Under the pieces are notes generated by a model that saw nothing but the letters and a program-made list of their open reading frames with translations, was not told the origin of the DNA and ran no database searches. Of a stretch of DNA of 64,000 nucleotides, positions 4,354 through 61,505 are shown in pieces. Positions within the stretch are counted from its first letter, which is position 1, and every line of letters begins with the position of its first letter. Origin of the DNA: Brachionus manjavacas (lineage: Eukaryota > Rotifera > Eurotatoria > Ploima > Brachionidae); assembly GCA_019054805.1 (NCBI GenBank), contig JAHQIY010000007.1, positions 2,671,501 through 2,735,500 of the forward strand, in the 5' to 3' direction. The translations under genes and the position numbers were made by a program.

Positions 4354-6962
4354 AATTATTTTTTTACTTTTATGTTTGTATTAAATGATAAATATTTTTT
4401 TTATTTAAAAATTTCATTCAATTTTGAAAAATTTGGACTTGAAAATCCAAAAATTTACAATATTTCAAATAAAAAATTTTTTTTTGAATCCACTTAGTTA
4501 AAAAATTTGAGTTTTAAATTTTTCTAAATTTAAATTTAATTTAAGCCAAATTTTATTATATTATTAAATTATTTTTATCAATGCATATTAAAAATAAAAT
4601 ACGAAATAATTCTAATTAAATAATTTAAAAAAATTTAAGTCAAATATGCATTTATGAACTGAATGATACAGGAAAAAAGAATGCTTTTTTCACTATTTTT
4701 TCACCATTTTCATCTTTATATCTTTCTTAATGAGTATATTAGAATGATATTTTATTTAAGTGAGAAAAACAATGTAGAATTTTCAAGCCTTCCTTCAACC
4801 ACGATCAAAAATTTCTATATTTGGAATTATCTTATATGATATATTAAATTAAATGCAGCTATTCTTCAATAATTTCTTACAAAGTAACTCTTTTCTGAAC
4901 TAGGCGTCATCAAAGAGTATCTTACAAAGGGCTAGAAATAGTTATTCTCAATTTTATAAGAAATAGAACTATAATTTTTAGCTATGATTTTAATCTTTAA
5001 GGGGTCTAAAGAATCTGTCCGCGTTTATTTGTATTTTTTTGGAGCCTAAATTTCATCAATTTTTAAATACTAAACATTGAACTAAATGTAATTTAGTAAT
5101 CTTAGAACAATTTACGTTCAAATTCTAGGGTTCAAAATGATTTTTTAATTTCTTTTCTGATAAAATAATATCCAATTTTTCAAATGAAAAATATTCTATT
5201 CGTTCTAGTTTTAATAAAATCCAAAATTAGTTGGTAATGTTTCGTAATTTTATTCAATTTTTTAGCATCCGAAAGATCTTACTTAAGAAGCTGATTTTAG
5301 AAATAGTACTTAAAGTAAAATTAATTCAATTCATAATTTTCATAATTAAAGTATGGGAAATTTTCTTCTAATACAAACAAAGTCAATACTATGAACTTTC
5401 AGACCAATGTTTTGTAAAAACTTTGATATTTAAAAAAGCACATTACGATCAAAAAAATTATTTTATATCAAAAATATTTTTCAGAATTTTTATCCATTTT
5501 TAAGCTTTAAACACATCGAAAAGCCTTTATGATATATTCGAAAATTACAAAAAAAATTTCATGTCATAATAATTTTTCAGAATTTTTCATGATTTTTTTT
5601 GATAAACAAAATTTTATGAGAAATCTAAGAAACAATCGATAAAAATCTAATAGTTTCGATTGATTATTGATTAAAAGTAAAAGAAAATTAATTTTTTATA
5701 CAAATAGCTAAAAAATTAAAATTTATTCTAAATAGTGTCACCAATTCGTCTTTTTGGTGGCACATAACAAGAAACGCTAAAAACAATATAAGGCACTAAA
5801 TAGCTGAAAGATTATTTAATAAGATAATTATTTTTCTCTTTCAAATAATATAAAAAATTGTCTGTTTTTTAATAAATATTAATTTTTTTATTGATTAGAT
5901 ATTTTGTAAATATTAATTTTGGAAAAAATTAGTTTCGTAAATTTCATTTTATAAGAACTGAAAAAAATATCTTTTAATCTTGAGAACTTTAAGCTTTTAC
6001 CTTAGCAGCAAAAAATCAGTCATTTGAATGCAATAAGGGAGAATATACAAAGTTGCATCAATTCTAGAAGTCTTGTAATCATGCCCAAAATCTGGGCAAA
6101 ATACGCAAAGCTTAAACTTAGAATTTAAATTCGTGTTTAATTTGCACAGTTTTTCACAATGCTTCAGTGTTTGATTCAGCTTGTTTCATTCACAGAACTA
6201 ATTTAGCTGCAAAAAAAATTTTTTGCATTTTGTCCGCTAAATTTTTTAATTGAATTACTCATAATCAAAAAATCAAGCGTGATTTTTTTTAATTTATTCT
6301 GCGACATATTTCACTTAAAAAATTTGAATTTTGAATCATTTAAGTTAGAAAAATTTTTTGACTTAGCAGTGGATATTTTCAAATAGGGTTACTTGGGTTA
6401 TAAAAACTATATATTCTCTGAAGTAATTAATTAAAGAATTAACAAGCGCTAGAAATGCAGAAAATTGATTTCATTTTAGATTAGATTTTGATTTTTTTTT
6501 ATTCTTGTACAGGAAAATTTTTCAAAATAATAAAATTTACAAGCTAAAATAAAAAAAAAATCTTAAAAAGCCAAGTTGAACACTATCATTAATTACTTTA
6601 AATAATTTTTATTATTTACTACCTAATCAAAGATTTGGTCAAAATTTCAAGTGAAATTTTAAATTATAAAATGCGAGTTAATAATTTTGAAGAAATTAAT
6701 TAATTTTTAAATAATTATTAAACAAAAAGAAAGAGGTTGAAAAAAAATTCAAAATCTAAAAAAATAATAATAATGCGTTTAAAAAATTCTCTATTTTTTA
6801 AATTTAACTATTCATTAATTATTATAAATAAGCAATTTTATTTTTTAGCACAGAGCAAAATTTAAAATATTCAATTGGACAAAGGCTAATTTTTGAACTA
6901 TTTAGAAAAAAAGAGTATTTATTTAATTTAGAGTTTTATTTTTAAAATATTCCTTATTTAAA
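4354..6962. other. Intergenic region, no gene seen
   Basis: About 2.6 kb of AT-rich sequence between TLS1 and ATPAF2. No convincing coding frame on either strand. The one structured item noticed is a GC-containing hairpin at 5735-5763. Confidence 0.5.
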
Positions 6963-50746: not shown

Positions 50747-52296
50747 ATGGTGGGAATGGGTGAAGAACATTTTTGCCTAGATAATCAACCTAGTGATGAA
50801 TCGACAAGTAGCAGCTTGGCAAATATTTGTTCTCAAGTCGAGTCTCTAATTACTAACAAGGACACTATTGATCAAAACAATAATAATTATTATAATCAAA
50901 ACGAGCAAGAAAATAAAAAGTCAAAGGTTTCTACGTTTAATTTTGGCAAGTGCAAGGTGTGCAAAGACAAGGCCACTGGTATACACTACGGCATTCCTTC
51001 GTGCGAAGGCTGCAAGGGCTTCTTTAAGCGCAGCATAGAGAAAAACGAGAAATATGTGTGCTACTTTGGCTACAAGTGTGTGATAACGCCAAAGCAGCGA
51101 AAGAGGTGTAAATACTGTAGATGGAGGTCGTGTCTGGCAGCGGGCATGTCCTTCGAGGGCATTAAGATGGGCCGCATTCCCAAAATTGAAAAGGAAAGAG
51201 CCCAGTATTTAAATGATGAACTTGTGTATGGTAAGAGTCCATTCTCTACTATCAGCCCTTCTCTCCCTTCACTTTTTACACTTGAGTTTATTTATCTAAC
51301 TAAATAATGATTAAAAAATTACTTTTTCCAAGCTAATCCGGCAATGGAGAATACAGAAAATAGAATATGTGTGCCGAGCAAGAGCCCGATTAGCTCCGCA
51401 AGCGCTCTCGGTCTTTATGCTTCATTAAACCAGTGTTACAATATTTCGCCAAATCCACAAGCTTTAAGACCCAATTCTTCCTGGAACAACAACGATTTCG
51501 GCTTGTCCATATTGGCAGACAAATGTTTTCAATTGTATCAGGATGTAATGGTAGACTATGACTGGCAGCTTAGCCGTGCTTTGAGTCTCATTCGAAAAGG
51601 AGTTAAATTAGACCTATTCCGCTATCACTTGGTCAAAAATGACGTATGGCAAGGCTATTGTGCCGAAATATTTTCATTTACCAAAAAATTTATAAAATTT
51701 GTCCAAAACACACCCGGTTTCAATCAGTTCGATTCCAAAGATTTGGCCATTTTGATCAAGCAGCGTTTGTTTACTTGCTATGGCCTTTTTTTGACCAAAC
51801 TGGTCATAGATGGAGAGTTCTATATGATTCTGGACTCGAAGATACAATCAAGTAGATATTTGATGGAAAAAGTCTATAGCAAAGAAGTGTCTGATGTAAT
51901 ATTTGAGCTTCATGACCGAATACATTCTTTTAAGCTGACCAGCAAAGAGTTGGCAGTGTTTATCACATGGTTACTAGTGTCTGAAGGTATGTTGAGCAAA
52001 ATTTTATTAAAAATAAATTAAAAAAAAAAATAAATAGATTGTGACGACATTTTTAACAAAGAATTGCTTGTTCACTTGAGAATGTACTACAGTCAAGTAT
52101 TGACCTATGAATTTAAATTAAACAATCGCAGCCAAGACATATTCAATGGCATTATTGAGGTAGATGAAACTTTTAAATTTTTTTGATAATTAAAAAAAAA
52201 ATTCATTCAATTTTGTTTTTTAAGACTTCAAATTTACTCAGTAGGTTGAATCGAATGTGTTCGCGGGCATGCTATGAAAATTTAAATCTAGACTAA
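50747..52296 (+). CDS. Nuclear receptor A (NR1-like), 4 exons
   Basis: Ligand-regulated or orphan transcription factor of the nuclear receptor superfamily. Exons 50747-51230, 51333-51986, 52038-52159 and 52225-52296 give 443 residues. A Ser/Asn-rich A/B region is followed by a two-finger DBD (about residues 68-140). Its first finger starts CKVCKDKATGIHYGIPSCEG and has P-box EGCKG. The second finger contains CVITPKQRKRCKYCRWRSCL, and the C-terminal extension is GIKMGRIPK, as in NR1-type monomer binders. The LBD is in exons 2-4, with NTPGFNQFDSKDLAILIKQ near the helix 3-5 signature. The final exon, ending ACYENLNLD, aligns with the end of receptor B. Subfamily is tentative (E75/Rev-erb-like DBD). 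The DBD segment is nearly identical to that of receptor B 2.5 kb downstream. Confidence 0.88.
50939..51202 (+). repeat. DBD tract, copy A of a 264-bp near-identical pair
   Basis: Matches 53435-53698 at 263 of 264 bases (offset 2496); the one difference is C at 50989 against T at 53485. The tract coincides with the DNA-binding domain plus its C-terminal extension, and is visibly GC-richer than flanking coding sequence. Similarity stops abruptly on both sides. Confidence 0.95.
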
Positions 52297-53248
52297 ATGG
52301 GTAAACTGAACTGTTGATCAATTTTATGTGTGATTTTTATTTGTATCAATGTAAATACGAACAAAAATATAAATCAAAGTGGCCTATAATTTAGTGTAAA
52401 TTTATCCGTCTCTAACAATGCACCTGTTCAAAGACATTTTTTTTCTGCTTATTGTATTGTACGCTTTTAAGTCCAGAACATGAACAGGTTGTAAATTCCA
52501 CTCTTTTTTTGCTTGAAGAAAAAATCATAAATATATTTAACTTTTTATTTTATCGTAAAAATTCAATTTTATTTATAAATGTTTTTTTTTTGAAATAAAA
52601 TTTAACAACATTTTGTTTGGTATTGTTTTACTAAGCCTTTCGATCTAAGGCTGATGTTGTAATTTAACTTTGGCGGACGATTTTGGTTGTCATGTTAACC
52701 AACAATCTCGTGATCCAGCAACTGATTCAATTGTTGCATAACCATGCGCTGATGCAATTGTAAGATGTTAAATAATAATTATTTCTAAAATTGTATCTAG
52801 AACAGACTAAAATATGCAAATTTTTTTCAAGAACAAACTTTTGTTATTTAAGCAGCTAAATGTCTAAAATTTTTTAATGGTTTACTAATTCTCCAAGAAT
52901 GTTGTTCTAAAAATTTAAAATAAATCTTATTTTTTCACATTATTTCGCCTCCAAAAGATATGAAAATTTCAAATTATTATAATTTTATTCGCCAAAATAG
53001 AGGCTTGTTTCTAAAATTTCAAGCTTAAAAAATTATGTATAATTTCTTTTTCTTTTTTTTTATAAAAAAAAACCTTCGCGAAAAATATAAAAAAATACAC
53101 GCAACTCTAGACTCATATAACTTTTGATATGACTTGCATTCTCACCATTTTTCATTTATATCTCAATTTTTTTTTCTTTTTTAGATATAAATGTTTCAAA
53201 AGATTTAATAAAAAAAATAAAAAAAAACTTAAATTTTTTTTGGAAAAA
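52297..53248. other. Spacer between the two nuclear receptors
   Basis: About 950 bp holding the 3' UTR of receptor A and the promoter/5' leader of receptor B. T-rich tracts precede the chosen ATG of receptor B. No other feature seen. Confidence 0.5.
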
Positions 53249-54657
53249 ATGTTCGACATTAGTAAAAATGAGAGCAATGATTTTTACACACTGAATGTAA
53301 AAGATTTGGCTGTGAACCAGAATATGAGGCATCGTCAAGAAAATGGATCGCGGTCAAATTCTAGCTCGCCAAAAAATCTTGAGCTAACAACTGCTGAGGA
53401 GCAAACAAAACACAAACCAAAACCATCAACATTCAATTTTGGCAAGTGCAAGGTGTGCAAAGACAAGGCCACTGGTATACACTATGGCATTCCTTCGTGC
53501 GAAGGCTGCAAGGGCTTCTTTAAGCGCAGCATAGAGAAAAACGAGAAATATGTGTGCTACTTTGGCTACAAGTGTGTGATAACGCCAAAGCAGCGAAAGA
53601 GGTGTAAATACTGTAGATGGAGGTCGTGTCTGGCAGCGGGCATGTCCTTCGAGGGCATTAAGATGGGCCGCATTCCCAAAATTGAAAAGGAAAGAGCCAA
53701 ATATCTCACTGAACAAAATTCAGAGGGTAACTTTAACTACGATTAAAAAAAATAAAGAAATAATTTCGTATCAAAGATGAAGATATTGAAAATAAAGAGT
53801 TGGATACAAATCAAAACGATGCCAGAGTGGAACAAATAAGACTATCTTTAAAAAGTCTTTTGAATTTGAATCCATCACTTGATCTCTTTAGAACACTTAA
53901 TCCTTACAGTTTAATTCCGAGAACATCTTTCTCGGAGTTGTGCATCTCGAATCACACTGAAAACAACATTTTTGTGCTCACCTTAATGAAAGATAGATGC
54001 TACCAATTATTCAAGAATGGTACCGATGATTTTCAGCATCAATACGAACGAGCCTTAAAGCTTATTGAAAAAGACTTTGACTGCACTATATTCAGCTATA
54101 CTCAAACATTGGAAAATGTGTGGAAAGCTTTTTGTTTGATGACATCCGAATTTACTAGACGAATGGTGTCCATAACTAGAGTTTGTCCTGGATTTGATAA
54201 ATTTGATTCCAAAGATTTAGGCTTGATCGTTAACGATCGTCTTTTTGTATGCTACGGTCTGTGTGTCAGCAAATTGTTTATAAATGATGAGTTTTATGCC
54301 CTGCTTGATGCCAATACTCAGCTAACTCACTATTGGATGGACAGACTTTTTGGTCTGAGTGTTTCCCAAAAAATATTCTCCTATCATGCTAAACTGAACA
54401 ATTTCCGACTAACCGACGGTGAAATATCAATCATTATTCCATGGTTGTGCACTAAAGATGTTCAAGTGTCCAATATGGAGCTGTTGAATGAACTAAACAC
54501 GTACTACACTCAAGTTTTACTTTATGAGCTCAATTTAAATCAACGCACTCCAGAATTTTATACACAACTAAGCCAACATTTAGAAATTTCCAAGGAAATT
54601 AATGTTTTAATAAAAAACACTAGTTTTGAGGATATAATTTGTCGTAATTTGGACTAG
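53249..54657 (+). CDS. Nuclear receptor B (NR1-like), 2 exons
   Basis: Tandem paralogue of receptor A. Exons 53249-53726 and 53777-54657 (intron 50 bp, same position and phase as intron 1 of receptor A) give 452 residues. The start at 53249 (MFDISKNESNDF) was chosen over an upstream in-frame ATG at 53129, because the intervening text is Phe/Lys-rich translation of T and A runs. The DBD is identical in protein sequence to that of receptor A. The LBD is only distantly similar: VCPGFDKFDSKDLGLIVNDR parallels NTPGFNQFDSKDLAILIKQR. The whole LBD is in one exon, where receptor A has two extra introns. The C-terminus, ending in SFEDIICRNLD, has no clear AF-2 motif. Both genes probably recognise the same DNA site but differ in ligand or cofactor response; this is inference. 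Confidence 0.88.
53435..53698 (+). repeat. DBD tract, copy B of the near-identical pair
   Basis: Partner of 50939-51202; see that entry. Flanking coding sequence (SKVST versus PKPST before it, QYLNDE versus KYLTEQ after it) has diverged at the nucleotide level. Confidence 0.95.
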
Positions 54658-55934: not shown

Positions 55935-57065
55935 CCTCGCTATCTCCAGCTGCCTGGTGGAAGGCAAATTTTCCACCAACTTTCAAAAAAGGTAAAAGAA
56001 ATCTCCCATCCAACTATAGACCCATCTCCTTAACATCTATTATTTTAAAATAATAGAAAAACTGATAAAAAAATGGATTTTAAATTTCCTCAAAGAACAC
56101 AATATTATTTGAAAACACCAACATGGCTTCGTTAAATTCATATCTCGTATTACGAACCTGTTAGAATGTCTCAACCTTTTAACCGATTCCTTGAATTTAG
56201 ATTTTGCCGTCGACATTTTGTCTATCGACTTCATGAAAGCCTTTGACATTGTGCCTCATCCAGAACTTATCGTCATGGTATGGATTTAAAGGTAAAATTC
56301 TTGACTGGATCAATGCCTTTCTGTCAGAAAGGAAGCAAAGAGTTGTTCTCAATGGATTTTCTTCCAAATGAATGGACGTATTGAGTGGAGTTCCTCAAGG
56401 CTCAGTCTTAGGTTCTCTGCTTTTTATTAAATTCATAAACGATCTACCAAATGGCTTATCCGTCTTTTGCAAACTCTTTGCTGATGATAGTAAGTTGATG
56501 AGCGTAATTAGAAACCCGAAAGACCACGAAGAATTACAGGCAAATATAAGTAAGGTACTTGAGTGGACTAGGCGTTGAAAGATGGACTTAAACTTTAACT
56601 TAAACAAATGCAAAGTAATGCACTTTAGGAACAAAAATTTCTATCAAGAACACTTCTATTCTTTTGAAATCGAAGATAACTTGTATTTAATCGAAAACTC
56701 AGACTCAGAAATAGATTTAGGTGTTATTTTAGAAGATGATCTGAAATGGGACAACCATTTATCGAATATAATTCACAGAGCTAATTATATTCTTGGAAAA
56801 CTTAAGAATTCGTTTACGAATTGGGAAACATGAACATTAAGGTTACTCTTCACCTTATTTGTTAGACCAGTATAAAAGTATGGATCAGTGGCTTGGAGTC
56901 CATACAAAAAGCATGACATAAAGCAATTTAAAAAAGTTCAAAAGAGAGCTACCAAACTTGTACCGTCTATCCGGAACAAAAGTTATGAACAAACGCTCAT
57001 AGTATTAGGACTGACTAGCTTTGAAGAATGTCGGATTAGAGGTGACTTAATACAATTTTTTTAAA
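55935..57065 (+). mobile_element. CR1-like LINE reverse transcriptase, decayed
   Basis: The only + strand LINE in the window. Broken frames give FKKGKRNLPSNYRPISLTSI, then FAVDILSIDFMKAFDIVPHP. The largest intact frame (56372-56578) has GVPQGSVLGSLLFIKFINDL and CKLFADDSKLMSV, the catalytic box. KCKVMHFRN, LGVILEDDLKWDNHLS and SVAWSPYKKHDIKQFKKVQK follow. The order of RT motifs is canonical for CR1. Stops at several places show that it is inactive, and it lacks ORF1, the endonuclease and the very end. Confidence 0.85.
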
Positions 57066-60594: not shown

Positions 60595-61505
60595 GTTTTC
60601 TGTACCGAGCTAGGGCTACTTCAGAAAAAATTAAAAAAAAAAACAAAATAAAGTAAATAAGCAAAAAAAATGAAAGTTAAGAGGACATAGATTGTTACAT
60701 GTGGCACATGTTTGCATAATTCAGGTTTCAAGAAAAAAGGAGGAAATAGTAAGGTAAGGTAGCATTTACACAATGGAGTTGGGTACTCAATATATCTCGA
60801 TTCGAAGCCTTCTTTGTATTCCTCCACCAGTCTTGCAAGCAATGGAATATCATGACTCAGTCCTGTCCCAACATATCTCTCACTCAACTCAAAAAGCCGA
60901 TTCGAGACTGTTAGTAATTTAGGTTTATTAAAAGCTTCATGATGCACTATGTTGGAGGGAATATCAAATTTTAACTTAAGGATAGATCTTACTGCTGAAT
61001 TCTGAATTGCTTGTAGATTTTTGATATTATTTCCTGAAAATGAATTCAAGCAAGGAAAAGAATAGTCTAAAATTGATCCGACTAAAGATTTATATAAATT
61101 TCCTAGTGTGTTTTGATTAAGACCCCATTTTTTATTTGACAATATCTTAATAATATTTAGCCTTTTATTGTAGCTTTCTTTAATTTCGTCTACCAGTATA
61201 TTAAAATTTAACTTAGAATCAAATTTTATACCAAGAAACTTGATTTCTTTTTGGTTATTTATTCTGTTTCCATAAATTTTTAAGTTTAGATTATCACTAT
61301 CTTTTTTGTACCTAGAGAAGACTACTGAACACGACTTTTCAACTGATATCTTCATTTTCCATTTAATAAGGCATTGTTCTAGTTCGTTGGTGTATTTATT
61401 TATCTTATTTTCTAGGTTCCCCTTTTTTTTATAAATGAAGAATGTAACTAGATCATCTGCGAAAAGCAGAGAGTATTCATTATTTGTTTTGCAATCGCCA
61501 TGATT
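60595..61505 (-). mobile_element. 5'-truncated LINE with long intact RT C-terminus
   Basis: The best preserved LINE copy here. The - strand frame runs from NNEYSLLFADDLVTFFIYKK (catalytic FADD) through WKMKISVEKSCSVVFSRYKK, KFLGIKFDSKLNFN, LNIIKILSNKKWGLNQNT, LYKSLVGSILDYSFPCLNSF, SAVRSILKLKF and NRLFELSERYVGTGL. It is open for 244 codons after the FADD region (61355-60621). The 3' tail block TAGGGCTACTTCAGAAAA and a TAAA-rich tail end near 60580. It is truncated at the 5' side near 61505. The tail relates it to the copy at 34310-35020. Confidence 0.8.

Follow-up and report, generated by a model that had tools for sequence, protein, structure and literature searches.

Introduction

Gene conversion limited to the DNA-binding domain (DBD) is already known from homeobox pairs. 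In the annelid Capitella teleta, the homeoboxes of Dlxa and Dlxb are 98.4% identical while most of the remainder of the genes has diverged, for which the authors, in the portion of the paper available to us, invoke gene conversion (PMC3199776). For mammalian TPRX1 and TPRX2, an excerpted account describes conversion that recurred, its breakpoint lying consistently immediately downstream of the homeobox, and a downstream part that is homogenised less (PMC8208926), and the available text on the human red and green opsin genes, which also presents theory, describes conversion that homogenises the paralogues except where selection keeps a functional difference (PMC3924837). Here, we describe two tandem nuclear receptor genes, A and B, in a 64,000-nucleotide stretch of the Brachionus manjavacas genome (contig JAHQIY010000007.1, positions 2,671,501 to 2,735,500, hereafter the window; the contig is called C7 below), which share an almost identical DBD and have strongly diverged ligand-binding domains (LBDs). 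Sequence comparison indicates that A and B are an old tandem pair of the NR1 type, and interlocus (non-allelic) gene conversion over the DBD and its C-terminal extension is very probably the best explanation for the shared tract. A second receptor pair of this kind in the same genome is new here. A literature search pairing nuclear receptors with gene conversion, in which few subscription papers are covered, gave no case of DBD-limited conversion among the matches listed; one of these, in its available part, concerns GC-biased conversion in usp and not paralogues (PMC3520820).

Results

Gene A (50747..52296, + strand) and gene B (53249..54657, + strand) lie head-to-tail with 952 bases between them. 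Within the first coding exon of each sits a tract of 88 codons that encodes both zinc fingers and the C-terminal extension (NFGKC...KIEKERA) and is the same at 263 of 264 positions (50939..51202 in A and 53435..53698 in B, both on the + strand). The sole difference, C at 50989 and T at 53485, changes TAC to TAT, both coding for Tyr. Direct comparison thus reproduces the tract as delimited in the first-pass annotation, together with its single synonymous change, and a separate repeat search also recovers the A/B repeat (300 nt, 95%). A DNA search of the genome assembly (114.17 Mb in 61 contigs) found no third copy of the tract at such identity, the next best match being 82%.

Divergence along the two genes, calculated by the Nei-Gojobori method, is sharply partitioned. 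In the tract, the proportion of synonymous sites that differ (pS) is 0.018 (1 difference over 56.7 sites) and there are no amino acid differences; in the LBDs, pS is 0.74, which is saturated, the corresponding nonsynonymous proportion (pN) is 0.40, and the proteins are 36% identical over 226 amino acids (hinge and LBD at 51333..52296 in A and 53777..54657 in B, + strand). The closest differing bases flanking the tract are 50938 upstream and 51203 downstream. The 12 codons before the tract (50903..50938 in A, 53399-53434 in B, + strand) carry old divergence, with 6 synonymous differences over 7.0 sites, and here the residues S-T-F are the same in A and B, yet all three codons differ. Downstream, up to the hinge intron (51203..51230 in A, 53699-53726 in B, + strand), divergence begins at the first base after the tract, and the residues Q/K-Y-L include a TTA vs CTC difference. 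Synonymous divergence therefore passes from near zero to near saturation at edges that lie inside conserved protein. When the comparison is limited to codons whose amino acid A and B share (Met and Trp excluded), 1 of 84 differs in the tract vs 62 of 110 outside it (Fisher p = 5e-19), and the longest run of codons with at most one difference covers 86 of the 194, a length equalled in none of 20000 permutations, where the longest run was 44. The wide divergence of the LBDs and immediate flanks, and the contrast in synonymous divergence along the pair that the first-pass annotation had proposed to measure, are thus both borne out.

Could the synonymous sites of the tract simply be constrained? 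Other members of the family, numbered here by locus (L) and contig (C), argue otherwise. The closest of these, L034 on C11, has a DBD protein closely similar to that of A (nonsynonymous distance, dN, 0.12), and its DBD stands at a pS of 0.73 from A and 0.67 from B; the DBDs of L018, L038 and L044 are at a pS of 0.66-0.75 from A. Synonymous sites in the DBDs of this family are thus free to change, and constraint does not explain the tract: at the rates seen for L034, some 38-41 synonymous differences would be expected between the A and B tracts, where we observe one. It is also hardly credible that selection acting directly on the nucleotide sequence, as DNA or as RNA, through an overlapping element or codon constraint, keeps the two DBDs alike. 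The tract is coding and its protein is conserved in the family, as such selection might have it, but the similar proteins at high pS, the abrupt edges inside conserved protein and a homogenised intron in the second pair (see below) all speak against it.

The pair itself dates far back. A tree of ten LBD protein sequences from the family, with the last exon of L045 left out, places A and B as sisters, supported at 97.5 in the Shimodaira-Hasegawa-like approximate likelihood ratio test and 98 in the ultrafast bootstrap; their branch lengths are 1.04 and 0.62 substitutions per site. Since the hinge intron also has the same position and phase in both, the long-branched sister LBDs point to an ancient duplication. 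A recent duplication of the whole gene followed by fast change of the LBD was considered and rejected, because the LBDs have reached saturation at synonymous sites and identity in the non-coding sequence is no higher than background; recent duplication in this genome is exemplified instead by L033-L036 and by L011/L012 (see below).

Intron positions bear on whether B instead acquired its DBD as a unit. B lacks introns 2 and 3 of A, and in L018, L034, L039, L044 and L054, though not in L038 or L052, breaks in the reading frame point to an intron close to the site of A intron 2, from which we conclude that B has probably lost this intron. Intron loss appears frequent in the family, possibly by way of reverse transcripts: A, B and L018 all lack the CEGCK^GFF intron found in the other examined members. 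Such losses would fit a scenario in which B was without a DBD, through loss or from the start, until it received that of A by a single insertion or exon transfer, perhaps via cDNA. We consider this very improbable. The tract starts and ends within one exon, its flanks are homologous and of old divergence on both sides (S-T-F upstream, Y-L downstream), and the hinge intron is held in common; with homologous sequence already present in B on both sides, what took place would be replacement of a homologous segment, rather than acquisition. In the second pair, moreover, the tract contains an intron.

This second pair, L044 (C12:2623915-2626991) and L045 (C12:2607819-2610895), is also in tandem and of the same family, lies 16 kb apart on C12 and likewise combines a homogenised DBD with a diverged LBD. 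It was found among the loci selected for comparison, which comprise the best 30 from a Pfam search with 72 exon-level matches, the relatives of A and B, and four further clusters. Its tract (L044:1423-1924) has 10 differences in 502 aligned columns and begins in the N-terminal part of the first coding exon, from where it takes in the rest of that exon, the intron of the DBD, the remaining DBD and a stretch of the hinge. The intron within it shows one substitution and one single-base indel, which implies that the transfer in this pair went from DNA to DNA and not via a spliced transcript. Over the 124 codons of DBD and hinge, pS is 0.025, vs 0.69 in the LBD. Into the LBD, identity in 60-base windows declines through 87, 83 and 78% and is then 51-76%, a gradient that may be a trace of earlier conversions of greater length or be due to conservation alone. 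L045 groups with L039 and not with L044 in the LBD tree, weakly (70/68). L018, compared with the neighbouring copies on C11, is not homogenised (pS 0.74 to L034), so that DBD-limited homogenisation is present in two of the neighbouring receptor sets examined and not in all.

An error of assembly or polishing, in which the sequence of one DBD replaced that of the other, is in our view very improbable. Given the small size of the A/B tract, short reads could map to either copy, which is how such an error could arise, but a one-base difference separates the copies, each is bordered upstream and downstream by unique sequence, paralogues of 76-82% identity remain distinct in the assembly, and the same pattern recurs in the L044/L045 pair, there with differences that are scattered and an indel in the intron. 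Taken together, the divergence of tract vs flanks, the codon test and the LBD tree strongly support the earlier proposal that conversion was confined to the DBD, and the second pair is alike in this respect.

The tract was also described in the first-pass annotation as GC-rich on an AT-rich background, and this was presented as what GC-biased conversion would yield. The description stands, with a GC content of 0.48 vs 0.26 for the window and of 0.64 at third codon positions (GC3), but other DBDs in the genome are similar, with a median GC of 0.46 and a median GC3 of 0.49 (n = 26 scored DBDs from L001-L030, including the A and B copies as L016 and L017; L025, L026, L029 and L030 gave no pattern match). 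This reading is not supported: GC3 is above 0.64 in 7 of the 24 other scored DBDs, it reaches 0.87 in L018 and 0.70 in L038, family members that have no converted partner, and in the converted DBDs of L044 and L045 it is only 0.48 and 0.47. GC-biased conversion was therefore rejected as the source of the GC content of the tract. GC3 is higher in the DBD than in the LBD in all eight family genes compared, barely so in L034. A weak effect of GC bias may exist, as GC3 in the tract is above the DBD median.

Both genes belong to the nuclear receptor superfamily, with a C4 zinc-finger DBD and a nuclear receptor LBD. Their models were built by eye from the sequence alone, and the start codon of A is uncertain. 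Gene A codes for 443 amino acids in exons 50747-51230, 51333-51986, 52038-52159 and 52225-52296, with a frame that is open across GT-AG introns of 102, 51 and 65 bases; gene B codes for 452 amino acids in exons 53249-53726 and 53777-54657, open across a single GT-AG intron of 50 bases; each has a single terminal stop. The zf-C4 family (Pfam PF00105) matches above cut-off, at 96 bits in A and 95.6 bits in B, and no ligand-domain family was reported for either protein in the Pfam search at E up to 1. A profile made from the LBDs of ten family members does match solved nuclear receptor LBDs, the best being Rev-erb alpha (NR1D1; E 3.1e-18), followed by ROR, LXR, FXR and others. The closest solved structure to the DBD, whose P-box region reads CEGCKG, is again that of Rev-erb alpha (1a6y, E 2.5e-25). 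This alignment spans from the first finger to GRIPKIEKER, and the homogenised tract hence corresponds to the zinc fingers plus the C-terminal extension, which in Rev-erb reads the A/T-rich flank of AGGTCA. A and B thus resemble the NR1D group (Rev-erb/E75) in their best solved relatives and in a GRIPK-type C-terminal extension, but the relationship is distant, as judged from the profile E-value, and the likeness is one of best solved-structure hits only. Collections of bacterial, archaeal and viral sequences were scanned as well, and no relatives were confirmed in these.

Nuclear receptors with two DBDs (2DBD) have been reported for Brachionus, according to the available part of PMC10497141. 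We rejected this identity for A and B, which have one zf-C4 stretch each and separate LBDs and stops. Elsewhere in the genome, L023/L026 (C14:2251110-2251577) and L028 (C15:1442295-1442874) each have two DBD matches close by on one strand, in a 2DBD-like arrangement.

Several other receptor loci show different kinds of repetition. Four near-identical receptor copies, L033-L036 (C11:2070903-2113238), are 99.4-99.8% alike over about 3.2 kb each and form a recent array, in which three copies share one orientation at a spacing of about 12.8 kb and the fourth is inverted. L011 and L012 (C7:1351939-1367596), about 12.5 kb apart, are 99.2% identical over a 1200-bp block that includes DBD, intron and LBD and is flanked on both sides by unlike sequence. 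This pair and the array are ordinary recent duplications or longer conversions. The reverse strand of L052 (C8:1259501-1269000) has two copies, at about 728-1021 and 5575-5868, of a first coding exon that encodes zinc finger 1. These match at 97% over 295 bp, and a single second finger and LBD follow within the 9.5 kb stretch; the duplicated exon may represent alternative first exons or a remnant gene. The receptor-type DBD copies L019, L021 and L025 (C29, C11) are 92-96% alike, one with a stop in the DBD, and adjoin open frames that by eye resemble a Ty3-type retrotransposon polyprotein. In the window itself, 55950-57000 (+) and 60624-61505 (-) resemble, also by eye, a degenerate non-LTR reverse transcriptase.

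Discussion

How might two old paralogues have come to carry one young DBD? A and B are old tandem duplicates of the NR1 type, here in a monogonont rotifer. The sequence supports that, after the duplication, conversion copied the segment for the DBD and C-terminal extension between them, replacing homologous sequence, while flanks, introns and LBD kept their old, saturated divergence. Conversion was presumably recurrent, since DBDs at family-level divergence (about 76-82% DNA identity) would be poor conversion substrates. It may have narrowed to the DBD as the only stretch kept alike by purifying selection, and conversions into the LBD were possibly selected against, as they would erase the differences between the receptors. 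The identical DBD and C-terminal extension would plausibly keep both receptors on the same DNA site; A and B would then both bind AGGTCA-type sites, which we take to be the target type of their DBD, while the signals sensed or the partners recruited by their LBDs would differ.

Some observations weigh against this account. The synonymous distance (dS) of about 0.018 in the tract fits the recent conversion that had been proposed, though it depends on a single difference, and the edges of the A/B tract show no gradient, as would result from one single event. In addition, the DBD is not homogenised in a tandem pair on C4 (L051) that is 71% identical over 675 bp, and L039, which lies in one C12 cluster with L044 and L045, is homogenised with neither (pS 0.73 and 0.74).

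The last two cases count equally in favour of a passive process, in which the DBD is homogenised without functional role because similarity sufficient for pairing persists nowhere else. Such a process would compete with the selective reading and not with conversion as such, and we give it an even chance. In all family pairs compared, dN is lower in the DBD than in the LBD, which makes the DBD the most conserved part of the gene, and the L044/L045 tract extends past the DBD into hinge and intron. On the other hand, the A/B tract stops where the DNA-contact module ends, and the pattern occurs in two pairs of one family, although neither point is decisive. Selection and plain homology as the limit on the tract are thus about evenly balanced.

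If selection does take part, gene conversion may be a means of modular concerted evolution in the NR1-type receptors of rotifers: it would repeatedly reset the DNA-reading module of neighbouring genes while their LBDs diverge, and selection would maintain sets with one address and several sensors, in at least two pairs independently (A/B on C7 and L044/L045 on C12). We put this forward tentatively, as a possibility that we rate below even.

Duplicated receptors are usually thought to diverge as whole genes. In these two pairs of one family, the DNA-reading half appears to stay shared, with the sensing half free to diverge, and one can test whether, through conversion, two receptors are able to go on competing for the same sites or pooling their inputs there. 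Nuclear receptor trees are commonly built on the DBD, and such trees would misdate paralogues of this kind. B. manjavacas is, according to the available part of PMC10395877, the rotifer in which CRISPR editing works; the published guide-RNA targets in vasa and mlh3 given there have one exact match each in the genome, and the reversed-pattern controls have none.

Finally, the described systems, as far as their excerpted accounts go, resemble the rotifer receptors in different respects. Dlxa and Dlxb of Capitella, like A and B, are linked transcription-factor paralogues with a near-identical DNA-binding box and a diverged rest; they are homeobox genes in a tail-to-tail arrangement, in contrast to nuclear receptors that, for A and B, lie head-to-tail, with two such pairs in one genome. 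TPRX1 and TPRX2 have in common with A and B a conversion boundary close to the DNA-binding box. Their recurrence is shown across many species, whereas the A/B case comes from one genome, and the LBD of A and B is saturated rather than merely less homogenised. The opsin genes, as A and B would be, are homogenised by conversion except where a difference is retained, but in mirror image: a small diverged island in a converted gene in the opsins, and a small converted island in a diverged gene in A and B.

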